Source of the DNA: a virus
Virus record (IMG/VR): IMGVR_UViG_3300038696_000410
Coordinates: 1-25,046 of that record
Strand: one strand, 5' to 3'
Length of the DNA: 25,046 nucleotides
Position 1 is the stretch's first letter. Every line of letters starts with the position of its first letter. The position numbers were made by a program, and so were the translations under genes. The notes under the pieces are model-generated. The model saw only the letters and a list, made by a program, of their open reading frames with translations. It made no database searches and had not been told where the DNA came from. Below, piece by piece: positions 3,622 through 24,318 of this stretch.

Positions 3622-4263
3622 CTAGTGAGCTCCAGAGTTAGAGGTAAGTTTTCCACACACGCAAGCACACACTCTACCCACCGCACGCCTCAGCCGATTA
3701 GGCCCATCCACCTTATAATAATCACGGCTCATCAGCAAATCATAAGCAGAATCAATAATCGCATCCGCATAAAGATCCAACTTCGCGTTATCAGTCAGAG
3801 TCATATCACCGAGCACCGTATCAATGAATTCCAGCTCCCACAGAACCGCACGCATATTCGTCTCACGCAGCACATGGAAATTAGCCCCCTTAACACCTCG
3901 ATCATTATGCCTAGAAAACCTAGCCATAAGCTTCTCATGGCACACCTCAGCCGCAGCCTTAGATCGCTTAGAATACCGATAATAAAACGTCTCTATTCCA
4001 GTCACCGTAGAATTATACGCATTACAATGCAGACTGAAAAACAGATCACTCTTATTCTCATTCGCATCCCTAGCACGCTCAGGCAGCTCCACGAAGTAAT
4101 CATCGGCCCGCGTGAAATGAAGCTTTATCCCCACCCGCTTAGCACGCACCTCCAGCCGCTTCTTTAATCCCAGAACAACGGACTTCTCTCTCAGACCGGT
4201 GATAGGATTCACCGCACCAGCGTCCTTACCGCCATGTCCAAAATCGATTGTGAGAATCTTCAT
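3622..4263 (-). CDS. N-acetylmuramoyl-L-alanine amidase (endolysin)
   Basis: A 213-residue Amidase_3-family enzyme that would cut the bond between muramic acid and the peptide stem of peptidoglycan, releasing progeny phage. The zinc and catalytic residues are visible in order: His10 (DFGHGG), Glu26 (GLREKS), His79 (FFSLHCNAYN) and Glu143 (VLWELEF). The catalytic domain fills residues 1-177. The C-terminal 35 residues are basic and Cys-containing, with no recognised cell-wall-binding domain. No signal peptide is seen, so it would depend on the neighbouring holin. The start region lacks a Shine-Dalgarno sequence and is A/T-rich. A tRNA gene lies just upstream. Confidence 0.93.
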   Translation of the reverse strand: MKILTIDFGHGGKDAGAVNPITGLREKSVVLGLKKRLEVRAKRVGIKLHFTRADDYFVELPERARDANENKSDLFFSLHCNAYNSTVTGIETFYYRYSKRSKAAAEVCHEKLMARFSRHNDRGVKGANFHVLRETNMRAVLWELEFIDTVLGDMTLTDNAKLDLYADAIIDSAYDLLMSRDYYKVDGPNRLRRAVGRVCACVCGKLTSNSGAH

Positions 4264-4284: not shown

Positions 4285-4359
4285 TGGTTGCTGGGGAGGG
4301 AGTTGCACCCCCGACCTTCAGATTATGAGACTGACGAGCTACTACTACTCCACCCAGCG
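4285..4359 (-). tRNA. Initiator-type tRNA-Met (CAU), divergent
   Basis: A 75-nt tRNA with encoded CCA. The acceptor stem is CGCTGGG/CCCAGCA, so the first pair is a C1-A72 mismatch, the hallmark of bacterial initiator tRNA. The D-stem keeps the initiator A11-U24 type pair. The anticodon loop is CUCAUAA, identical to E. coli tRNA-fMet. Divergent points: the anticodon stem is UCAGU/UCUGA, so the three G-C pairs of initiators are absent and the pair next to the loop is U-U; the D-loop (AGUAGUA) lacks GG; the T-loop is UGCAACU, not UUCAAAU. The last two would weaken the usual D-loop/T-loop contacts. It sits between the lipoprotein and amidase genes in the same direction. It may be functional, specialised or decaying. 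Confidence 0.85.
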
Positions 4360-7923: not shown

Positions 7924-7952
7924 AACACAACCAAAGCACACAACCCAAGCAA

Positions 7953-7977
7953 TTCCTAATTCCTAATTCCTAATTCC
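7953..7977. repeat. TTCCTAA heptad tract
   Basis: Three TTCCTAA units plus TTCC between the head-tail joining candidate and the fibre gene. Confidence 0.88.
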
Positions 7978-7982
7978 ACATT

Positions 7983-8333
7983 CTACCCCCCAGGGATACG
8001 ACCATCCCAGCTACTCACCGGACCGCACACTATCTCAGACCCAGCCTTATCCAGATCCACCACCCGCAGCACTCGGCCACGCACATTATCCACCTCCACG
8101 ATAAATCCCTTCTTCACACCCTCAGCATCCGCAGCCTTCACAAAGAACCGGAAGCTCGCCAGGTCCCGCTTACCACCCGTGCTCTGCACATGATCAGAAA
8201 CCATATCACTCTTCGTTCCCCGCACCTTCTTAAAATCCACCGCATCCAGACTCTCCTTAATATACGCCCACTCACCCATCTCCGCCTGCTCCGCATCCAC
8301 ACTACACTCCCACGCGTCATCAAAATTACTCAT
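7983..8333 (-). CDS. Candidate head-tail joining protein
   Basis: About 116 residues beginning MSNFDDAWECSVDAEQAEMG. The N-terminus is acidic and the C-terminal half is beta-rich (FRFFVKAADAEG, KKGFIVEVDNVRGRVLRVVD). It follows the major capsid gene in transcription order, where lambda carries FI and FII; the size and beta fold suit a FII-like connector or a stopper protein, but no motif is decisive. The start at ATG 8333 is chosen because the TGACA box and GGTGGGGTGGGG lie at the usual distance. An in-frame extension to 8411 would read through the terminator hairpin and is unlikely. Confidence 0.55.
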   Translation of the reverse strand: MSNFDDAWECSVDAEQAEMGEWAYIKESLDAVDFKKVRGTKSDMVSDHVQSTGGKRDLASFRFFVKAADAEGVKKGFIVEVDNVRGRVLRVVDLDKAGSEIVCGPVSSWDGRIPGG

Positions 8334-8448: not shown

Positions 8449-9408
8449 TTACAGGGTAGAATTCGTCTTGATCAGCTGACCAGCGTGCTCGTTCACTATC
8501 TTCTCGATAGAGTTAGAACGCACTCTGAGCTTATCAGAACGAGTAGCCTCATCGCGGTATGTCTCCGTAGAGAACAATCCACCAGGACTATCTGCATCCC
8601 AAGTCAATGTGCGACCCACTCCACCTTCGGAGAAATCACCACCCTTAACGCAACCGATCCACATATAATCAACTCCCCAGATAGGATTAACAACCGTCTT
8701 ATCCTTAGACTTAGAAGTATCAATATGAGACTTCGTGATATGCACAGTATCAAAGTCAAACACCTCCTTGAGATGATTCGCAGTGAGCTGGCGCTTACCA
8801 GTGCTATCAGTGAGCTTGCCCCAGACATACGCCTGCATAAGCTTACTTCTGCGGAGGTAGTTCCATAGCTTCAGACTCAGAACGAGCGTATTAGCTGTTT
8901 CACCACGAGAAATGATCGCCTCAATCGCCGCCTCAATATCCTGCGGTGCATCCACAGTATCAATAAGTGCGTTAGTATAAGCTATCACAGCATTCTCCTT
9001 AGCGAAGACATTCTCATCAATAAGAGTCTCCTTAGCACGGACCTCGAAATCCAGAGCCACTTGTCTTCTAACAAGCTTACCAGTCATCGTCTCCATATCG
9101 AAGAAACTCTTCATCTCAGCCGCTTTTGAATCATCAATGCGCTCCTCAAGACCCCGATCTTTACAATCATAAGAATCCCATTCGTGAGAACGAGTTACCT
9201 CATTATAACTACCACCCGAGTTACGAGCCGTGTTATCACGGCGCATAAGCTTACCAGTTCCCATCTTAATGACTGGGAATCTTCCAGCGCGAGCTTTCAT
9301 GCCCTTCACTGGAAACAACTTCTGTGCGATGAAATAATCATCAACACCGTGCGCATGTTCCAGAAATGCTGTGATCTCTGGTCTACTTACTGCTTGTGTT
9401 CCATACAT
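8449..9408 (-). CDS. Major capsid protein (lambda gpE type)
   Basis: A 319-residue HK97-fold coat protein that forms the head shell. Recognisable features are the N-terminal AFLEHAHGVDDYFIAQKLFP, the RFPVIKMGTGKLMRRDNTAR segment, the spine-helix region FFDMETMTGKLVRRQVALDF, DVDTVDAPQDIEAA-like P-domain sequence near 150-160, and the C-terminal IWGVDYMWIGCVKGGDF...TYRDEATRSDKLRVRSNS. No scaffold domain is fused to it, consistent with the separate scaffold gene upstream. Its ATG lacks the TGACA box; instead the leader is A-rich (AAATAGAAAGAATAATATAT), shared with the decoration gene. A terminator follows. Composition is less skewed than in the flanking genes, probably reflecting selection for expression. 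Confidence 0.9.
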   Translation of the reverse strand: MYGTQAVSRPEITAFLEHAHGVDDYFIAQKLFPVKGMKARAGRFPVIKMGTGKLMRRDNTARNSGGSYNEVTRSHEWDSYDCKDRGLEERIDDSKAAEMKSFFDMETMTGKLVRRQVALDFEVRAKETLIDENVFAKENAVIAYTNALIDTVDAPQDIEAAIEAIISRGETANTLVLSLKLWNYLRRSKLMQAYVWGKLTDSTGKRQLTANHLKEVFDFDTVHITKSHIDTSKSKDKTVVNPIWGVDYMWIGCVKGGDFSEGGVGRTLTWDADSPGGLFSTETYRDEATRSDKLRVRSNSIEKIVNEHAGQLIKTNSTL

Positions 9409-9912: not shown

Positions 9913-10518
9913 CTAAACAAGAGCACCAGACTCCTCTAAATGCTGAGTGTAACGGTCCTCGTCTTCTCCGATCGCAAAGCTAATCGCCTCACAAGCATCC
10001 TTACCCTCAGACTTCAGCTGCTCCACACGCGCAGAGAACTCAGACTGACCAGCCCCACCCTCAACAATGTTAAGCTCCACAGCACCATCAGCACCCGCAC
10101 TAAACTCCAACGGAGCATCAGTAAGTTCACTAAGTGTATTTGCCATCGCCTGATTCTGCAGCGCAAGTGACTCATTCAACTCAAGCACCTGCTCAAGTTT
10201 CTCATTAAGCTCATTAAGCTGCTCATCACGAGCCTCCTCATGTGCAGCGAACTCACGCGCAGCAGCATCATCAGCCAGACGGCCTTCAAGATAAGCCACC
10301 GGATCTTCACCTTCAGCGAATTGATGTTGCGCCTCAAGACCAGCCTCAGCCTCAGCCTCCAAGTTAATAGCATCAGAGACTTCAGAACTAAACTCTTCCA
10401 CCGCATCTAAACGTAAACCAATCACCTCAATACCACTCTGAATAGCTTCCAGGGCAGCTGAGAAATCGACCACGTTTCCTTCATTCCCACTCGCGGGATT
10501 TTTATTTGTATCGGACAT
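9913..10518 (-). CDS. Nested scaffold protein (internal start)
   Basis: An in-frame ATG at 10518 (residue 171 of the protease) begins MSDTNKNPASG and would give a 201-residue scaffold identical to the C-terminus of the full protein. It is preceded at 14 nt by the same TGACA box and GGTGGTGTGG run that mark the starts of separate genes in this phage. The arrangement matches lambda, where scaffold Nu3 is made from an internal start in protease gene C. The scaffold would nucleate capsid assembly and then be degraded. Confidence 0.7.
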   Translation of the reverse strand: MSDTNKNPASGNEGNVVDFSAALEAIQSGIEVIGLRLDAVEEFSSEVSDAINLEAEAEAGLEAQHQFAEGEDPVAYLEGRLADDAAAREFAAHEEARDEQLNELNEKLEQVLELNESLALQNQAMANTLSELTDAPLEFSAGADGAVELNIVEGGAGQSEFSARVEQLKSEGKDACEAISFAIGEDEDRYTQHLEESGALV

Positions 10519-11028
10519 ATCCACACCACCCATGTCAACACCATCATCACCAAGATCACCCTCAGAAAATAATCCATCAGGATTCGCCGCTGGACTAGCC
10601 ACCAGATCCACACAAGGAAGCGCACTACAACGCGCAAACATCTTATCACCAACCTTCTCACTCAGACCCTTAAAACTAGCACTCAGACCCACCCCCTTCG
10701 GCATCTTCTGCGCCAGCTCCAGTGCTTGCTCATAGCGTTCATGCTTCTTCAGCAAATGCCAATCAGCCTTCAGCTTATCCCCCACAATCTTAAAATTAGT
10801 AAGGAAACCATTAACCGCATCTGCCCCGGTCTTATGGTTCCACTTCACTGGCACCTGCACCGCCTCAGTAGCGCAGTCTCTCATCTGCTCCAGCGTAGTC
10901 ATATCCGTGTGCAGCTTATGGCCCTTAGCCTCCACCCCACTCGTAATAACACTCACATCCTTGATCACTCCAGACTTCTCATCCACCTGGCCATCCAACG
11001 GTAAAAATTCAAATTCATGTAACTCCAT
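9913..11028 (-). CDS. Prohead protease with fused scaffold region
   Basis: A 371-residue protein. Residues 20-150 resemble U35/S78-type prohead proteases: candidate catalytic His65 (VPVKWNHKTG) and Ser116 in KGVGLSASFKG, then LVASPAANPDGLF. After residue 154 the protein changes to an acidic Ala/Glu coiled-coil scaffold with a charged C-terminus. The motif F-(S/A) occurs eight times from residue 153 on: GLFSEG, VVDFSAA, VEEFSSE, HQFAEG, REFAAH, LEFSAG, SEFSAR and ISFAIG. The first separates protease from scaffold, which suggests these are its own processing sites. The start at 11028 is marked by a TGACA box and GGTGGGTGGTGG; an upstream in-frame GTG/ATG at 11091 would translate palindrome P3. 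An internal start at 10518 is listed separately. Confidence 0.82.
   Translation of the reverse strand: MELHEFEFLPLDGQVDEKSGVIKDVSVITSGVEAKGHKLHTDMTTLEQMRDCATEAVQVPVKWNHKTGADAVNGFLTNFKIVGDKLKADWHLLKKHERYEQALELAQKMPKGVGLSASFKGLSEKVGDKMFARCSALPCVDLVASPAANPDGLFSEGDLGDDGVDMGGVDMSDTNKNPASGNEGNVVDFSAALEAIQSGIEVIGLRLDAVEEFSSEVSDAINLEAEAEAGLEAQHQFAEGEDPVAYLEGRLADDAAAREFAAHEEARDEQLNELNEKLEQVLELNESLALQNQAMANTLSELTDAPLEFSAGADGAVELNIVEGGAGQSEFSARVEQLKSEGKDACEAISFAIGEDEDRYTQHLEESGALV
10519..10538 (-). promoter_or_regulatory. Internal TGACA start box for scaffold
   Basis: Minus strand reads TTGACATGGGTGGTGTGGAT directly before ATG 10518. The box-to-ATG distance (14 nt) equals that at true gene starts, although here it lies within coding sequence. 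Confidence 0.7.
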
Positions 11029-11053
11029 ACCACCACCCACCTTGTCACAACCT

Positions 11054-11073
11054 AAACACTTACGTAAGCGTTT
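11054..11073. repeat. Palindrome P3
   Basis: AAACACTTACGTAAGCGTTT, 26 bp upstream of the protease ATG; the same variant as P2 and P5. Confidence 0.88.
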
Positions 11074-11135
11074 CATCAACCACCTAATCAACCCAAACCT
11101 TTAAACTTAAATCTTAAATCTCTAATCTTCCAAAG

Positions 11136-11166
11136 AAAAAAGGGCGCAGCCCTAAAGCCACACCCT
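11136..11166 (-). terminator. Terminator after 40-aa gene
   Basis: Minus strand: GGGTGTGGC, loop TTTA, GGGCTGCGCCC then TTTTTT. It shares the flank GTAGAG and GTGTGGC with the capsid terminator but differs at paired positions. Confidence 0.8.
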
Positions 11167-11204
11167 CTACAATTACTCTCTTTTAATTCTGCAGTGCCGG
11201 GAAC

Positions 11205-11327
11205 CTACTTCGGCTTAACCTCCACCAACTTACCACCAGGACCCTTAGCCCAAGCTTGAATCGGTAACTTACTAGCCGGAGCATTCGCCCCCTTATTCAC
11301 TACTTCTGTTTTCGTTTTATCTGACAT
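11205..11327 (-). CDS. 40-aa protein, unknown
   Basis: A 40-residue basic protein beginning MSDKTKTEVVNKGANAP and ending KLVEVKPK, TAG stop. It is followed by its own terminator, which supports expression as an independent unit. The leader is A-rich (ATAGATAAAAAAATT) like those of the capsid and decoration genes, not of the TGACA type. The function is unknown; its position before the protease and its A-rich leader suggest a small abundant virion or assembly protein. Confidence 0.6.
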   Translation of the reverse strand: MSDKTKTEVVNKGANAPASKLPIQAWAKGPGGKLVEVKPK

Positions 11328-11411
11328 AATTTTTTTATCTATAGTTTCATCGTAAACCTAATCAACCACCAATGACCAATCAACCAATGACCAATCAACG
11401 TGGCAAAGCCA

Positions 11412-13253
11412 CTACACACCCCCCCTCCGCATCACTCTACCAGCCACACGCTTCAACCCACTCCTACCAGCAACCGCACCAACCAAACCAGCTACAGCCG
11501 CGCCTGCCACAACGCCTTTCTGGATTCTCCGTTTCCGCAAACCCTTAGCTGCCGCGAAGTCACCGACCCCTGCAACACTAGCACCTGGCGAAAAACGACC
11601 TCCATCATCACGACTGCGGGACGCAAACTGCATCAGTTGTCTATCAGCTTTCTCTGCAATACTCAACTCATTATTTCCATTACTTGGATCAGAAGGTATC
11701 TGGTCTATTGATAAAATATCCATCGAGGCGCTATGCTTCTCCGAGCCATCATCCTTAACATTCACGGACTTATTCCTCAGCTTATACTGCACCACTGCCT
11801 GCCCCACATTATCCAGCTTCACAGCCTTATCCTGGCTATCAATTCGGAAATGCGGAAAATCTTGTTGCGGATCCTTGTCATCAGACCGCCAGCTTGGAAC
11901 AAACCCAAGCTCCTGGAACTCATGCAGCTGCTCATCAGCAAGCTCTAGCGCACTCATCTGGATACGAGATAACGGCTCTTTCCCTATTTTCCCTGGCGCA
12001 TATTTCTTCAAATAATTACGCTGGTTAATATTTCTATTCACCCGTTTTACTTTATAATTAACACTATCCCTAATAACCTTATCCCTATAACCGCTACCAG
12101 TCTCAAGACCCTGCCTCAAAACAGGACGATTCATCCCATCTTGAACACGGCGTATCTTACGCATCCCCACCTTCGGAAGATCAGCGATAGCGCCCTTCTT
12201 TTTAAGCGCAGCCATCTTACGAGTCAGCTTAGCCACACCACCACTACCAAACTCAGTTGGCTTCACAGAATCCCTAACATGCTTCATTGTCCGACTATAA
12301 TCACCCAAAGGAGTCCCAAACTCAACCGCACTCAGATTCTTCTCAGCCTTAGCCTCAGCCTTCGCAGCCTTCGCCTTCACCTTGATCCGCTTCTTACCTG
12401 GACGAGAATACTCATCCCCCAAAACAACCTCACCAGCAGTTTTAGCTTTATTCTTTTTACGCACCAAAATATTCCATGCAGAATTTCTCCTGATATGACC
12501 ATCAAAACCACCCTCCTTCTCAACACCATGCTTAGTATTCACATACCCACCAGCAAACTCAGTAGTCTCCAACTGAGAACATAACTCAACCGCACGGTCC
12601 ATATAAGCTTGTTGCTCCTCCACACTCGCAAACCGCTTCTTACCCACAGCTCCCATAATCATCTTCTTCGCCTTACCAAGACCACCCACAGCACCCGCAC
12701 CAATCCTAGATTTATTCAACTGCCTCACAGCACCCTTACGCATCTTCTTCAGCTGCTTCTTAGGATCATGAATCAGATTCTCCCCCAGTATCTCAGTCTT
12801 CAAGATAGCATTCCTAGTAGGCTTATACTTCCGAGCACCCGCATACGCGGCACCCACCCCACCAGCAACAACCACCTTCTTACCAAAACCACCACCTTGA
12901 TTCTCATCAGAAAAATTCACTGAGCCATCATCAAAAAACATCTTCCGCTTAGCACGCACCGTCTTCACAAGAGCCTGCTTACCCAGACGTCTCACCTTGC
13001 GCCGAGCCGTGGTCAAATGCGGAGCCACCTTTGGCTTCACCTTATCATAAACCTTCATAGCATCCATCTCAGCCTGCAAAATTGGCTTCCGTGTCAGACG
13101 ACCCTTACGAGCAATCGCAAACGCACCACCAGCTCCAGCTCCAATCACAGCACCCTTCACCAACCTACGCGCTCCACGCTCATCATCACCCGCAAAATGT
13201 TGCAGCCGCTCACCTAAAATCTCATTTAATTCAGTAACACTCTTATCACTCAT
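11412..13253 (-). CDS. Large basic modular protein, candidate virion polyprotein (613 aa)
   Basis: A 613-residue, very basic protein with no recognised family. It repeats a module: an F-(A/S/G) motif, a basic stretch, then a glycine-zipper-like hydrophobic helix. Motif sites include LQHFAGDD, SVNFSDEN, KRFASVEE, TTEFAGGY, AVEFGTP, PTEFGSGG, MQFASRSR, GRFSPG and GDFAAAKG. Hydrophobic segments include AVIGAGAGGAFAIARKG, VVVAGGVGAAYAGARKY, RIGAGAVGGLGKA and GVVAGAAVAGLVGAVAG. An internal repeat is visible: ARKGRLTRKPILQAE and ARKYKPTRNAILKTE. It lies between portal and protease, where packaged or ejected proteins could be encoded. The start at 13253 (MSDKSVTELNEIL) is set by the TGACA box 14 nt upstream. 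I infer a protease-processed internal head protein; the sequence alone does not prove this. Confidence 0.6.
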   Translation of the reverse strand: MSDKSVTELNEILGERLQHFAGDDERGARRLVKGAVIGAGAGGAFAIARKGRLTRKPILQAEMDAMKVYDKVKPKVAPHLTTARRKVRRLGKQALVKTVRAKRKMFFDDGSVNFSDENQGGGFGKKVVVAGGVGAAYAGARKYKPTRNAILKTEILGENLIHDPKKQLKKMRKGAVRQLNKSRIGAGAVGGLGKAKKMIMGAVGKKRFASVEEQQAYMDRAVELCSQLETTEFAGGYVNTKHGVEKEGGFDGHIRRNSAWNILVRKKNKAKTAGEVVLGDEYSRPGKKRIKVKAKAAKAEAKAEKNLSAVEFGTPLGDYSRTMKHVRDSVKPTEFGSGGVAKLTRKMAALKKKGAIADLPKVGMRKIRRVQDGMNRPVLRQGLETGSGYRDKVIRDSVNYKVKRVNRNINQRNYLKKYAPGKIGKEPLSRIQMSALELADEQLHEFQELGFVPSWRSDDKDPQQDFPHFRIDSQDKAVKLDNVGQAVVQYKLRNKSVNVKDDGSEKHSASMDILSIDQIPSDPSNGNNELSIAEKADRQLMQFASRSRDDGGRFSPGASVAGVGDFAAAKGLRKRRIQKGVVAGAAVAGLVGAVAGRSGLKRVAGRVMRRGGV

Positions 13254-13289
13254 ACCCACCCCAAAAATGTCAACCGCAACAACAATCAA

Positions 13290-13314
13290 TTCCTAATTCC
13301 TAATTCCTAATTCC
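13290..13314. repeat. TTCCTAA heptad tract
   Basis: Three TTCCTAA units plus TTCC, next to the terminator at 13315 and upstream of the 613-aa gene. Confidence 0.88.
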
Positions 13315-13332
13315 AAAAAACCCCGAAGGGGC
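13315..13332 (-). terminator. Terminator after the 792-aa gene
   Basis: Minus strand GCCCCTTCGGGGTTTTTT: a four-base stem with the stable TTCG loop and a T-run. The 157 bp between it and the gene end at 13490 hold no convincing gene. That gap carries short repeats of the type ATTCTGTTAATCCTGTC and copies of CATCAACCC. Confidence 0.8.
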
Positions 13333-13489
13333 ATGGGTTTCTCACCCACAATCACCACTGCGCCCGCCTGCATATAGCCCCGCGCCACCAATGGATGATT
13401 TAAAATCTTCATCAACCCAAGTCACCATCAACCCAAGAGAAATTCTGTTCATTCTGTTAATCCTGTCAAAAAAATCCATCAACCCGAGA

Positions 13490-15868
13490 CTAATTCCTCT
13501 GATTCTTAGGCACCTTCATATCAGTATTCCCCCGGTAATGATACCCACCACCCGAAACCCCTTTACCAGCAGCCTTCTTCTTCATAAATTTACGCAGAGC
13601 CCTAGACTTCGCTCTTCCTCCAGCCTTATAACCAACCACCCCAGCCAGAACAGCCGTAGCAGCCAGCCCTCCAGCCACCATCTTCTTCTGGTTCTCCTTC
13701 TTCTCATGCCAATCCTTCTCACGTCTCACTCTACGTCTACTACCAGGAGCAAACACCCGAGCACTTCTACCGCGCGGATCCCGCACATCCCAGCCACTCG
13801 CCGCCGCCTGCGCATCAAACTCAACATCAGCAGGAGTTGAAAAATTCCTCTTATCCTCCTTACGGAACCTAGCCCCTATCCGTGAACCTATCTTAGCACC
13901 CGCATAAGCACCAGCCAGACCTAAAGCCAGCTTACCCTTCACCCCCTTACTCTTCAGCGCACGCCGAGCAGAATCAATCACCGGCTTAGTCGCTGACTTA
14001 GGATTATTGCGAAACACACCCTGAGTCCGCATCCCCTTAATCGTATTCACCGCCGCCCGCTTACTCGCATTATTCTTAGAAGCAGCACGCGCCACACCCA
14101 GACCACCCACAGCACCAGCACCGATCACTGCACCAGCACCCATACGGCTCTCATTTCTCAGCTTCGTCCCACTATCCTTCATCCTCCGCAAATGCTCATT
14201 CGCAGGAGTATCCCTAACCCCATAAGCAAACTGGACCTCAGCCGGAGTCTGATACCCCTCACTAAATAAAGACGAGCCACCAGGAGCAACCGCCTCAGCA
14301 GCACCCTTCACCTTCTTCACCATACCTTGGTGCAGACCTCTAAATTTCTTACTCTTCTTTATCCCACGCGTATAAGCCAGCACACCAGCACCCGCTATCG
14401 CAGTCTTCACGCCACGCTTGAAATAACCCTTCTCCCACTCACGCTTTTTCTTACGGCCACTACCATCCTTGCCACGCTCCTTACCGCGCAGCACATCAGC
14501 AGCATCCTTCGCCACCGCAGCCCCACGCGTCACACCCTTCTGGATCCGCGCACCCTTAGCCATACCCGCCTTAATCACCCGGATATCATTCAGTGGAATA
14601 TCCACCGCCTTACGCATCCCCTTCCCCAGCTTCTCACCCTTCGCATCTCGGAGACGTGGATCATGCGCTTTCTGAGTACCTCCAGCCACCCGCAGAGTAT
14701 TCGCAAATGTATCATCATCTATATCCCGCAAAGAATCCTTAGAAAAATCAATCGTCTCACCACCACCCTCAAAAAACTTACGCTTCTTCACCAGCCCCCT
14801 AGCAATTTTACGCACAGTAGGAAACGCATCCCCCACTTTCCGCTTCGCCTTCTTCGTGATCGCATCCGCCACACTCTTACCACTCGTCCTATCCGCAGCT
14901 CCCTTCACGCTCCCTGCCACAGACTTCACAGTATCCTTCAGCTCATCAATCGTCTGGCCAGCCTTAATCGCAGTCTTCCGCGCAGCCAACCCACTCATCA
15001 CCGCACCAGTTCCCACCGCCGCCGTGCCAGCAATAGCCACACCATCACGCGTCTTCGCCCAGTTATCTCGGATGTTCTTCCGCTTCGCATAAACCTTGAG
15101 ACGTGCAGCCTTAGCACGCTCCTCCTTAGTAGAAAACTCCACACTACTCATCTCCACCCGTCTCCGCGCACCTGGAGCTCTATCGCTAATTTTAGATTTC
15201 ACTTTCATACCTGTAGATCCCTCGATCAATGTTCTCGCATAACTATTACTATTCTTACCCAGCCCCAGAATATTACGAATAACACCCGGATACTCCTTCC
15301 CTTTAAATTTCTTACTCTTATCCAGCGCATCCCGAGCCGCCTTATCAACACCACGCGTAGACACCAGCTTCAAATCCTTCGGATTCTTCTTCAGATCCGC
15401 CACATCATACTTGTCATTGATCCCGCTCTTCAGCTTGCCCTTCTTATTATAAGCACCCATCACCACCGCCTTACTACCACCAATATTCCGCAGCTTCTTA
15501 GCATCCTTCCCCAGACTCTCACCCTTGCGAGGCACCGCCACCATATACTCATGGTTGAAAAACGGCATCGCCCTCACCCCACGCTTACCCTTATAAATAC
15601 CAGGCTTCAACCCCTCAGACTTCTCACCAAATAACCGATAAGGACGGCCCACCCGCCGTCTAACAGCACCCTCAACAGCAACCTTCCCCATCGACAAAGC
15701 ACCCACAGCAGCACCAGCAGTAGCCCCACCAGGCATCGGGATCAGCGCACCAATAGCCGCCCCCCTACGAATCGGCTTAGGAACCTTCTTCACCATATCC
15801 ATCACCGGTTTAGGAACCTTCTTCTTCATCCTAGCTAAAACACTCCCAACAATCTTTTTCGTTTTCAT
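13490..15868 (-). CDS. Large basic modular protein, candidate virion polyprotein (792 aa)
   Basis: A 792-residue strongly basic protein that resembles the 613-aa product in build but is not a simple copy. Motif sites include SVEFSTKEE, TIDFSKDS, SLFSEGYQ, EVQFAYGV, RNFSTPAD, DVEFDAQ and RVFAPGS; LFSEG is identical to the protease-scaffold junction. Hydrophobic Gly/Ala segments include AAIGALIPMPGGATAGAAVG, VAIAGTAAVGTGAVMSGLA, AIAGAGVLAYTRG, AGAVIGAGAVGGLGVARAA, LALGLAGAYAGAKIGSRIG and MVAGGLAATAVLAGVVGYKA, each flanked by Lys/Arg. Two modules open alike, with TPAEVQFA and TPADVEFD. A start at 15868 (MKTKKIVGS) is preferred: GAAGGGTGA precedes it. I infer an internal virion polyprotein cut at F-(S/A) sites into membrane-active peptides. 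Nothing enzymatic is recognised. Confidence 0.6.
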   Translation of the reverse strand: MKTKKIVGSVLARMKKKVPKPVMDMVKKVPKPIRRGAAIGALIPMPGGATAGAAVGALSMGKVAVEGAVRRRVGRPYRLFGEKSEGLKPGIYKGKRGVRAMPFFNHEYMVAVPRKGESLGKDAKKLRNIGGSKAVVMGAYNKKGKLKSGINDKYDVADLKKNPKDLKLVSTRGVDKAARDALDKSKKFKGKEYPGVIRNILGLGKNSNSYARTLIEGSTGMKVKSKISDRAPGARRRVEMSSVEFSTKEERAKAARLKVYAKRKNIRDNWAKTRDGVAIAGTAAVGTGAVMSGLAARKTAIKAGQTIDELKDTVKSVAGSVKGAADRTSGKSVADAITKKAKRKVGDAFPTVRKIARGLVKKRKFFEGGGETIDFSKDSLRDIDDDTFANTLRVAGGTQKAHDPRLRDAKGEKLGKGMRKAVDIPLNDIRVIKAGMAKGARIQKGVTRGAAVAKDAADVLRGKERGKDGSGRKKKREWEKGYFKRGVKTAIAGAGVLAYTRGIKKSKKFRGLHQGMVKKVKGAAEAVAPGGSSLFSEGYQTPAEVQFAYGVRDTPANEHLRRMKDSGTKLRNESRMGAGAVIGAGAVGGLGVARAASKNNASKRAAVNTIKGMRTQGVFRNNPKSATKPVIDSARRALKSKGVKGKLALGLAGAYAGAKIGSRIGARFRKEDKRNFSTPADVEFDAQAAASGWDVRDPRGRSARVFAPGSRRRVRREKDWHEKKENQKKMVAGGLAATAVLAGVVGYKAGGRAKSRALRKFMKKKAAGKGVSGGGYHYRGNTDMKVPKNQRN

Positions 15869-15889
15869 AACAAAATCACCCTTCAAAAA

Positions 15890-16057
15890 TTAACCCAAAA
15901 TACCCCGCATCGTCAGATCCGCCTTACGCACACTCAAAAAACGCACACTCAGCACCAGCCACACCACAATAAAAAAAGCCAACACCACCATATAAAAAAA
16001 CCACATAAAAGGATTCCACCCCCAACCGCTCGACTTCTCATCTTCAATGTATTCCAT
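15890..16057 (-). CDS. 55-aa single-pass membrane protein
   Basis: A 55-residue protein beginning MEYIEDEKSSGWGWNP, with one long hydrophobic segment (FMWFFYMVVLAFFIVVWLVL) and a basic end. The start at 16057 has the TGACA box 14 nt upstream; an in-frame ATG at 16063 is an alternative. It lies between the portal and the 792-aa gene, separated from the latter by 21 bp. A lone membrane protein among head genes is unusual; with the neighbouring hydrophobic polyproteins it may belong to a DNA-ejection set. No family recognised. Confidence 0.6.
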   Translation of the reverse strand: MEYIEDEKSSGWGWNPFMWFFYMVVLAFFIVVWLVLSVRFLSVRKADLTMRGILG

Positions 16058-16080: not shown

Positions 16081-16243
16081 GGAGAATTGAGAATTGAGAA
16101 TTAGGAATTAGGAATCAAAACCCAGCATAACCAAACAAACACTTACATAAGCGTTTCATCAACCCAAACCATCCCTAATTCCTAATTCCTAATCCCTAAT
16201 TCCTAATTCCTAATCCCTAATTCCTAATTCCTAATCCCTAATT
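16081..16243. repeat. Composite repeat block A (inverted heptads around P4)
   Basis: Heptads in the TTAGGAA orientation (16083-16116), then CAAAACCCAGCATAA, palindrome P4, TTTCATCAACCC, and a TCCCTAA/TTCCTAA tract (16172-16243) up to the portal stop. The same order recurs at 18553-18680. The opposed heptads could pair as a long hairpin with P4 in its loop. Confidence 0.85.
16137..16156. repeat. Palindrome P4
   Basis: AAACACTTACATAAGCGTTT, 80 bp upstream of the 55-aa gene; the central ACGT is changed to ACAT. Confidence 0.85.
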
Positions 16244-17953
16244 CTAAGCCGCAGGCGCAGCCGCAGCGGGAACTAAGAGCGAAGCTCGCCCATAATCCAT
16301 CGCATACATCTCCATCAGCAGCGCAATCGTGCTATCCCTATCCGCCAGACCATTACCATAATTCTCCAGCACATCGATCAACGGCTTCACACCCTTCTCA
16401 CCCTGCTCACCTATCAATCCAGGTGCAGGCTCCAGCTCATCAGAAATACCCGCCTCAGCCTTCGCCATATTAGCAATACTCTCAGTCGCATTCTGCAGCG
16501 AAGCATTAAGCAGCTCCATCGGAACCTTATACTTCTCAGAAACCCGCTGCAACATCGCCAGCTCAGCACCAGCCTGCTCCGCCAGCTCCTCAAAATCTGA
16601 ACCCAGCTCAGTCGCCCAAGTCGTCCGCGTCTTCACCCCCATATTCACCAGCTGCGCATCCGCCTGCACCTGATGGCCCACATCACCAGTGATATGAGCG
16701 CCATACTTCCAGTCACCCTTCTGCCACTGCTTACTAGACGGAATGCGCCCCTGGGCTATCCCTAACATCAAAACCTTATTCTTCACCCGATTCAGAATCA
16801 CCTCCTCCAACCGCTTCTGGTAACTCTTAAATACCCGCTGCGCCTGCGCCGTCTCCAGCCTAGCAGTCACCCCACCAAAACTCGCCATATTATAAACAAA
16901 CCCATAAGGAAGATTCAAAGAAATCGCAATCTCTCGGATAATCGCATCGAGCAGCTGCATGAACGCACCACTCGGGCGCATCGTCCCAGGTGCAAAACTT
17001 ACCTCCTCATCATACCCCAGCTGCCTCACCTGACCAGGCGCAGCATTCATCGTATTGATCTTACTCCCCGCAGTCCCACCACCCTTAGAATCTGGACCAT
17101 TATCCCACGATCCACCAGTCCGGTTATTACTCGTATCCTTCTTCTTCACAAACCCCGCAAAACTCGCCGCAAACTTCGCCGCTATCTTCTCATACCCCAG
17201 CAGCTCATAAAGATCCCGCGCATGAGGTAAAGCTGGCTTCAGCTTACTCACCCCATGGTATTGATCCACAGAAGTCGGAAAAAACAAATGGATAAACCGC
17301 TTAGGAGTCACACTCCCCTCCTTAGAATACTGGTTATTCACACTCCGCTTATAAATATCATACGCCTGAACCACCCCAGCCTTATTCACATGGATCCCAT
17401 TCAGATTCGTCTCACTCTGCACAAACGCAGTCGGATTACCAATACGGTCCGCAGTAATCCCCTGCAGACTCAGCTCACCACCCTTAATATGCTCCACAAA
17501 ACCAAACTCACCATCACGAATACTCGCCCGCAAAGCCAACTTCACCAGCGTTCCAAAACTATGCCGCCCACCATAATCCGCCCGCTTACACCAAGCATGA
17601 AAATAATCTTCATAAGCCTTATCAGTCTTCGGATCACCAGTCGCCGCCCGGTATTCCATATTGTCACAAACATACTGCGTAGTCCGCTCCAGGATACCCG
17701 TAATGATACACAGATACTCCTCCATCGCCCTACCCTCCCAGATAGCAGCCACCCGCTTACGCTGTTTCTGAGGACCCTCCGCACCAGCCTGATCAAACAA
17801 ACTCGCATTCTGCCCCCTAGCCCTACCACCACCACCACGGCCACCAGCACTCAACTCCACAAAACTTTCAAGCGCCACCCGATCCTCAGCCCGCTTAATC
17901 GCATAACCTGGGGAAACAGCACCTACGACCTTTTCAAAAAAATTCAATTCCAT
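16244..17953 (-). CDS. Portal protein (lambda gpB family)
   Basis: A 569-residue Phage_portal_2-type protein, the dodecameric ring at the head vertex through which DNA is packaged and ejected. Recognisable stretches are FHAWCKRADYGGRHSFGTLV, LRASIRDGEFGFVEHIK, RFIHLFFPTSVDQYHGVSKL, LYELLGYEKIAAKFAASFAG, LDAIIREIAISLNLPYGFVY and FGGVTARLETAQAQRVFKSY, in the family order. The length is usual for the family. The start at ATG 17953 has a TGACA box 13 nt upstream; the GTG at 17965 is in frame but less likely. Lambda's preceding gene is the small gpW, also paralleled here. A terminase gene is not in the window. Confidence 0.92.
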   Translation of the reverse strand: MELNFFEKVVGAVSPGYAIKRAEDRVALESFVELSAGGRGGGGRARGQNASLFDQAGAEGPQKQRKRVAAIWEGRAMEEYLCIITGILERTTQYVCDNMEYRAATGDPKTDKAYEDYFHAWCKRADYGGRHSFGTLVKLALRASIRDGEFGFVEHIKGGELSLQGITADRIGNPTAFVQSETNLNGIHVNKAGVVQAYDIYKRSVNNQYSKEGSVTPKRFIHLFFPTSVDQYHGVSKLKPALPHARDLYELLGYEKIAAKFAASFAGFVKKKDTSNNRTGGSWDNGPDSKGGGTAGSKINTMNAAPGQVRQLGYDEEVSFAPGTMRPSGAFMQLLDAIIREIAISLNLPYGFVYNMASFGGVTARLETAQAQRVFKSYQKRLEEVILNRVKNKVLMLGIAQGRIPSSKQWQKGDWKYGAHITGDVGHQVQADAQLVNMGVKTRTTWATELGSDFEELAEQAGAELAMLQRVSEKYKVPMELLNASLQNATESIANMAKAEAGISDELEPAPGLIGEQGEKGVKPLIDVLENYGNGLADRDSTIALLMEMYAMDYGRASLLVPAAAAPAA

Positions 17954-17981
17954 ACCCATCCCCACATGTCACCAAAGAACC

Positions 17982-18552: not shown

Positions 18553-18680
18553 AAGGAATTGAGAATTGAGAATCAAGAATTAAGAATCAAAACCCAGCAT
18601 AATAAAACAAACACTTACGTAAGCGTTTCATCAACCCGCGCCATCCCTAATTCCTAATTCCTAATCCCTAATTCTTAATC
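18553..18680. repeat. Composite repeat block B (inverted heptads around P5)
   Basis: A second copy of block A: GAATTGAGAATTGAGAAT heptads, CAAAACCCAGCATAA, palindrome P5, TTTCATCAACCC, CCATCCCTAATTCCTAA tract. It fills the gap between the divergent leftward and rightward operons. Confidence 0.85.
18609..18628. repeat. Palindrome P5
   Basis: AAACACTTACGTAAGCGTTT, 80 bp before the 18529 start and 89 bp before the 18718 start. Its asymmetry favours pairing in the leftward transcript. Confidence 0.88.
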
Positions 18681-19642: not shown

Positions 19643-19791
19643 TGCACCCCAAAACCATGGACGGCTAGAATTTTTTAGCCCTCACTCCCCCACTTCCAGG
19701 ACGGCCCTGGCTGAGCTGTTTTTGCGCCATTTTTTAGTTATAGTTATGTATAAGTAAATATCTGTATTTTAAAAACATGATGATATCATCG

Positions 19792-19876
19792 TTTTCTGTT
19801 AGATTCTGTTTTCTGTTAGATTCTGTTTTCTGTTAGATTCTGTTTTCTGTTAGATTCTGTTTTCTGTTAGATTCTT
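19792..19876 (+). repeat. 17-bp tandem repeat, five copies
   Basis: Unit TTTTCTGTTAGATTCTG, five copies with one mismatch in the last. Each unit contains TTCTG twice, so it also has a shorter internal period. Confidence 0.95.
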
Positions 19877-19904: not shown

Positions 19905-20043
19905 AAACTTTGAACTCTCATCATGCATAAGAGTGAGAGTTGAAACTTTGAACTCTCATCATGCATAAGAGTGAGAGTTGAAACTTTGAACTCTCATCAT
20001 GCATAAGAGTGGGAGTTGAAACTTTGAACTCTCATCATGCATA
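19905..20043 (+). repeat. 38-bp tandem repeat, 3.7 copies, hairpin in each
   Basis: Copies start at 19905, 19943, 19981 and 20019 (last partial). Each contains AACTCTCA and TGAGAGTT as an inverted repeat around TCATGCATAAGAG; copy 3 has one change. Similar in sequence to 18961-18985. Iteron-like or operator-like, upstream of the 20099 gene. Confidence 0.93.
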
Positions 20044-20098
20044 ATAATAGACTTTATAAGCTTGCATCATGTAACAATAAATCGTAAAATCATTCACA

Positions 20099-22788: not shown

Positions 22789-22805
22789 ATATAACAACTC
22801 ACTAA

Positions 22806-22847
22806 TTCCTAATTCCTAATTCCTAATTCCTAATCCCTAATTCCTAA
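22806..22847. repeat. TTCCTAA heptad tract
   Basis: Six heptad units (one TCCCTAA variant) directly before the DUF3150-type gene start. Confidence 0.9.
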
Positions 22848-24055: not shown

Positions 24056-24280
24056 ATGCCAAACTTAAACAAAGAAATCTAGGAAGGATGGACAGTCCAA
24101 TGCTTCATCAACGACCTCCAACCACAACTAGACATGGCCTTCCAAGGCCAATCCATCCAGAAAATGCCCACCACTCGAAAAGAGATGACCGATTACTTGA
24201 AGGAGAACCAACCCTCCTACAAAAAAACCATCCCCGACCTCGTGAAATATTTCTGCGAGAGATACACCATCACCAACTAA
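24056..24280 (+). pseudogene. 74-codon gene interrupted by an in-frame TAG
   Basis: From ATG 24056 the frame reads MPNLNKEI, then TAG at 24080-24082, then EGWTVQCFINDLQPQLDMAF and on to ETYTITN-like end (CERYTITN) with TAA at 24280. The downstream part looks like a real protein: helix-forming, ending in PSYKKTIPDLVKYFCERY, with no further stop. P11 and an A/C-rich leader sit before this ATG as before intact genes. So the gene is either inactivated by one base change (TAG from GAG, AAG or CAG), or translated by readthrough, or started further in (ATG 24134). TAG is a normal stop elsewhere in this genome. A sequencing error is also possible. Confidence 0.65.
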
Positions 24281-24318
24281 CCCTAATTCCTAATCCCTAA
24301 TTCCTAATTCCTAATTCT
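24280..24318. repeat. TTCCTAA heptad tract
   Basis: About five heptads (one TCCCTAA) between the interrupted gene and the ATPase ATG at 24320. Confidence 0.88.

Follow-up and report, generated by a model that had tools for sequence, protein, structure and literature searches.

In phage T4 the capsid-targeting sequence is a propeptide of 10 to 19 residues that both targets a protein and is itself cut, with targeting exerted through residues 4 and 7 and the cleavage site at its end (PMC9026906). The T4 prohead protease gp21 cleaves after L/I-X-E (PMC9026906), and its relatives of the phiKZ and SPN3US type likewise cleave after Glu (PMC9026906, PMC5694885), their inner-body and ejection proteins being cut after S-X-E or A-X-E. 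Processing of the T4 type, the propeptides of giant phages and the large polyvalent proteins of phages and conjugative elements are already known systems. Here we describe a 25-kb IMG/VR virus record (IMGVR_UViG_3300038696_000410; 25,046 nucleotides, hereafter the window, in whose coordinates all positions are given) whose minus strand codes for a portal, two basic proteins termed B1 (792 aa) and B2 (613 aa), a protease-scaffold fusion and a major capsid protein. We propose that the basic proteins are probably strings of internal head proteins in one chain, each module bearing a targeting and cleavage tag and being processed by the neighbouring gp21-like protease. Searches of open papers found no description of a comparable phage polyprotein, in which one tag recurs between the exchangeable modules of a protein close to the portal; this does not prove its absence.

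Gene order and the protease-scaffold fusion

The initial annotation of the window, made from the sequence alone, had described two very basic proteins between portal and protease, and both open reading frames (ORFs) are present on the minus strand: B1 (13490-15868), which has homologues in relatives, and B2 (11412-13253). Lys plus Arg outnumber Asp plus Glu by 187 to 68 in B1 and by 125 to 65 in B2, and Gly/Ala hydrophobic segments of 19 residues each occur four times in B1 and three times in B2. Relatives were collected by profile scans of viral contigs with portal and protease, giving 32 non-redundant loci (the window and 31 others); profiles were needed, as a single-sequence search of viral contigs with the protease returned nothing. 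The layout recurs beside the other portals, all 32 loci having the order portal, 1.3 to 9 kb of mostly Lys/Arg-rich proteins, and protease-scaffold, with the largest intervening proteins reaching about 1600 aa. In the window this order is anchored by a portal protein of the lambda family (16244-17965, minus strand; PF05136, E 9e-38). In four of 13 distant Planctomycetota prophage loci the portal directly adjoins the protease, and the basic proteins are absent from the interval. A contig of a Phycisphaerae metagenome-assembled genome carries one relative, and a strong protease match (E 3e-86) was found in one sampled genome of the same phylum. Named phage collections contained no close relative of the window capsid protein, of B1, or of two of the proteases (L055 and L035). 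Two small ORFs also lie on the minus strand between the main genes, one resembling a membrane protein (GWGWNPFMWFFYMVVLAFFIVVWLVLSVRFL, about 15830-15951) in the portal-B1 interval and one basic (MSDKTKTEVVNKGANAPASKLPIQAWAKGPGGKLVEVKPK, about 11205-11326) in the B2-protease interval.

The prohead protease is fused to an acidic coiled-coil scaffold (about 9913-11028, minus strand; residue numbering starts at 11034) and was not clearly recognised by PHROGs or PDB sequence searches. Its AlphaFold model has a predicted local distance difference test score (pLDDT) above 90 across most of the protease domain, and the best structural match is T4 gp21 (5jbl; Z 11.6, root-mean-square deviation 3.1 over 129 residues, Foldseek probability 1.00), followed by the herpesvirus assemblins, which score below gp21 (Z up to 8.2). 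The modelled domain is thus of the T4 gp21/herpesvirus assemblin fold, the assemblin-like fold expected of a gp21-type prohead protease. A His-Ser-Asp triad in the gp21 order (H67, S118 and D143; order rather than geometry was compared) is invariant in 29 sequences.

Motif enrichment and module boundaries

The initial annotation had drawn attention to a recurrent F-(S/A) motif in the basic proteins and the scaffold. Tested against 2000 shuffles, [EDQ]F[SA] is in excess in B1 and B2 together (6 observed vs 0.79 expected, p 0.0005) and in the scaffold half of the fusion (6 vs 0.50, p<0.0005); it is missing from the protease domain and the portal and shows no enrichment in eight other window proteins (2 vs 2.5 expected). 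The looser F[SA] occurs 7 times in B1, 8 times in B2 and 8 times in the scaffold, the last figure exactly as annotated, and the nine and seven sites listed for the basic proteins are close to these counts and depend on a loose form of the motif. A proposed link through LFSEG held in that the sequence is found both at the protease-scaffold junction and in B1 (F535; 14255-14269), and failed in specificity: the junction in relatives mostly reads LFEA or MFEA, and LFSEG was set aside as too weak a candidate for a specific shared cleavage site.

Across the 32 loci the motif becomes sharper as L-x-E-F, F[SA] alone being only 1.12-fold enriched in basic proteins. A scan of all gapped tripeptides in 90 basic proteins, which counted independent contexts only and did not assume the annotated motif, ranked L.EF first (28 contexts vs 3.8 expected), and the residue profile around F shows L or M at -3, E at -1 and S at +1. 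Relative to composition-preserving shuffles, [LM]xEF is enriched 10.0-fold in basic proteins (46 observed, 4.6 expected), 8.6-fold in other intervening proteins (7 and 0.8), 7.5-fold in scaffolds (18 and 2.4) and 3.0-fold in portals (13 and 4.4); flanking genes are not enriched (upstream 6 and 3.9, 1.55-fold; downstream 8 and 6.7, 1.2-fold). Scaffold parts of the 13 distant Planctomycetota proteases contain it no more often than chance would give (1 vs 0.84), the protease-scaffold boundary having been set approximately in some of them. The enriched L-x-E fits the known specificity of gp21-type enzymes, a link inferred by homology.

Motif positions are conserved in homologues, as the annotated cleavage model had anticipated. 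When B1 is aligned with three homologues, four residues are invariant: F365, F375 (TIDFS; 14741-14752), F676 (RNFSTPA; 13835-13846) and F684 (DVEFD; 13814-13825), the last immediately preceding the conserved GWDVRDPRGRSARVFAPG terminal module. The slot before this GWDVRDPRG module, found in 22 loci, is filled by F in 18 of them and by L in the other 4. Further sites in B1 are SVEFS (F245; 15131-15142) and EVQFA (F547; 14225-14236), while B2 has TTEFA (F233; 12552-12563), AVEFG (F312; 12315-12326), PTEFG (F335; 12246-12257), QLHEFQ, which is of the L-x-E-F type (F446; 11913-11924), and QLMQFA (F543; 11622-11633), all on the minus strand.

Companion proteins in most loci start with a conserved helix-like stretch, such as KLVALEAKVDAKLF or HLHELSARIDAHLHQF, that ends at such an F and recalls the T4 capsid-targeting sequence. 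A profile of this tag, built from 20 sequences picked by eye from 18 loci, also matches internal sites; among unrelated control ORFs it gave no hit at E below 1. The combination of an LSA-type stretch and a following [EQHK]F occurs 29 times against 3.0 expected, compared with 2 against 2.4 in control ORFs. The N-terminus of B2 (MSDKSVTELNEILGERLQHFAG; 13188-13253, minus strand) is proposed as an analogue of the capsid-targeting sequence from its likeness by eye to the tags of relatives, and the profile does not detect this window copy.

Several modules occur in more than one setting. The 'HEY...NSNSYAR' cargo module of B1 (15167-15634, minus strand) is internal to a large protein in the window and in L004 and opens a separate protein in L003, and a VWRHY module, found inside a protein of L005, lies at the N-terminus in L016, L035, L036 and L007. 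The ends of BLAST blocks are only about twofold enriched near motifs, and we therefore replaced that test with a projection of free N-termini, in which two modules found both free and internal had their free start mapped onto 23 internal copies. In 14 of the 23 (61%) the projected start falls no more than one residue from an [EDQYH]-F bond, compared with 2.5% for random positions. For example, the free MTDPRPRN of L035 aligns with the internal RPGMIE/FVDPRPRN of L011 (slash at the bond), and B2 of the window shows the same boundary pattern at QLM-QF-ASRSRDDGGRF, where free copies of the RPRNxxGQF module start.

The cargo in relatives includes DUF6321, LRAT (L048:3657-6332, E 1.6e-5) and DNA-ligase OB-like (L008:11091-12492, E 4e-4) domains, located between or beside motif copies. 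Zincin-like HExxH segments are present in basic proteins at L045:8791-9963 (LAHEIGH), L030:4337-6535 (VEHEIGH) and L051:4520-8074 (ALHETGH), as in polyvalent proteins, with weak Pfam support (M48/M78) in L045 only. Pfam found no effector-like domains of the kinds matched in relatives in the window's own proteins. Two labels considered for individual modules were dropped: LRAT/NlpC-like for the NSNSYAR module, which had no profile-comparison support, a weak AlphaFold2 model (pLDDT 61) and no PDB match, and 'ART-like' for the VWRHY module, which had no Pfam support (DUF5872 at E 9e-6, just under the cut-off).

Proposed processing and alternative explanations

In the reading that we favour, a short element ending in L-x-E-F, in most cases an amphipathic helix such as LSAxLxxLK, would stand before each module. 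This element would recruit the protein to the prohead core, as the T4 capsid-targeting sequence does, and would also be the cutting site of the neighbouring gp21-like protease; that targeting and cleavage both sit in one element is the most likely arrangement. Once assembly is complete, cleavage of scaffold and basic proteins at these sites by the protease would release individual basic modules, compatible with DNA, into the head interior; some such modules are enzymatic in relatives, and they could exit with the DNA at infection. The bond cut may be either that between E and F, a candidate because of the analogy to gp21, or that between F and S/A, a candidate because F is the most constant residue. 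The identification of the F motif as a cleavage site in the initial annotation is favoured by conservation, by position at module boundaries and by the gp21-type protease next door.

Several observations weigh against this reading. Cutting and location in the virion are deduced from sequence, fold and analogy. The 23 projected copies are mutually related and not independent events, the block-end signal is modest, and the tag profile was assembled by eye. In the window, L seldom occupies the P3 position. At the GWDVRD slot F/L is retained, but the position before it is in many cases occupied by Q, H, M, L, T, S or R instead of E, a pattern more in keeping with a docking residue or with cleavage after F than with strict gp21 specificity. 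Finally, some EF sites of the scaffold sit in predicted coiled coil or open the folded C-terminal three-helix domain, at which F333 is nearly invariant, and these may therefore be structural.

In a different explanation, L-x-E-F is an uncut docking peptide that repeatedly binds scaffold, portal or capsid wall, and the proteins stay full length as an internal core or as DNA organisers. We regard this main rival as rather unlikely, though it has points in its favour: the hydrophobic-x-x-F spacing is like that of residues 4 and 7, the targeting portion of the T4 sequence (PMC9026906), conservation of F exceeds that of E in the slot that aligns best, and companion proteins carry the element mainly as a single N-terminal helix. 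Docking nevertheless leaves unexplained the free module starts within one residue of the bond, the presence of the motif in the scaffold itself, and its many copies between unlike modules of one protein.

The initial annotation had taken the products for membrane-active ejection peptides whose glycine-zipper helices form a DNA channel, and the 19-residue Gly/Ala segments of B1 and B2 speak for this idea, as does a Gly-zipper match in L004, although that match is weak (E 0.014). The relatives lend it no support and it appears improbable, since they have non-membrane domains between motifs and one long relative has a gene for a tape-measure protein (phrog_9959, E 2e-6), indicating a long tail that would not need an ejection channel of the podovirus kind; the hydrophobicity is moderate, and the Lys/Arg-rich flanks suit DNA binding equally well. 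That the motif is functionless, a compositional or structural by-product of linkers that are basic and of low complexity, is very improbable, for although linkers often gather short repeats and block ends are enriched only about twofold, this leaves unexplained a tenfold excess over composition-preserving shuffles that is not seen in flanking genes or control scaffolds, and F residues that are invariant in diverged homologues.

A stronger form of concatenated head proteins cut at tags is a true phage polyprotein, that is, one head-packaged precursor with repeated tags that is cut in the prohead into separate proteins, including swappable enzymatic effectors delivered with the DNA. We put this forward tentatively, at somewhat less than even chances; if true, the tag grammar would permit cargo to be gained, lost and reordered by recombination at cut sites. 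If the favoured reading is right, a single gene and a single tag grammar can suffice for tailed phages to load many different internal proteins, the T4 capsid-targeting principle extends to portal-proximal polyproteins of uncultivated phages, and [LM]-x-E-F between modules offers a sequence rule by which injected effectors could be located in viral metagenomes and divided into their parts. With the protease, its substrate and the candidate sites identified, a direct biochemical test is feasible.

Other features and comparison with known systems

The next large structural gene of the window encodes the major capsid protein (8449-9408, minus strand; phrog_1005, E 7.6e-33). A tRNA-Met (4285-4359, minus strand) lies directly before an endolysin gene (3622-4263, minus strand; phrog_435, E 5.5e-41). 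An AATTCCT/CCTAATT heptamer is repeated in tandem at seven places, several of which are intergenic gaps (2252-2277, 7951-7983, 13288-13314, 16171-16244, 18646-18679, 22802-22847 and 24277-24317), and two neighbouring tandem arrays, at 19791-19875 (17 bp x 5.0, 100%) and 19905-20044 (38 bp x 3.7, 99%), possibly form an iteron-like or regulatory region. Elsewhere, a helicase-like gene (G296:C1:52470-56372) has an apparent intein/Hint insertion (GCHARGALILMYDG ... VTHNTGKT).

MuF / SPP1 gp7 minor head proteins occupy the same place as B1 and B2, between portal and protease; unlike them, B1 and B2 have no MuF domain by Pfam or PHROGs. A possible parallel in the cleavage of lambda gpB, with an E-F near the N-terminus of the portal, was set aside, a literature search having returned no open paper on it. 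Polyvalent proteins resemble the present ones in being large, multidomain and near the portal, with shuffled domains and predicted packaging and injection, and the accessible text on them (Iyer et al. 2017, PMC5512222) mentions no tag that recurs where modules meet. Candidate domains of the polyvalent type occur in relatives of the window (DUF6321, LRAT and ligase OB-like matches, and weak ones to metallopeptidases); most modules here match no known domain. The inner-body and ejection proteins of phiKZ and SPN3US correspond to the reading proposed here in being head-internal, with several cleavage sites and a gp21-type protease, but as far as the accessible portions of those reports go, the cuts remove N-terminal propeptides and concatenated modules are not described. 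The T4 internal proteins IPI-III and Alt with gp21 share with this system basic proteins beside a protease of the gp21 fold and, in some, enzymatic cargo; their short N-terminal tag and L/I-X-E-type cleavage motif have putative counterparts here. T4, however, has one tag per small protein and a scaffold separate from its protease, whereas here the scaffold is fused to the protease and the putative tags recur from module to module in proteins as long as about 1600 aa.

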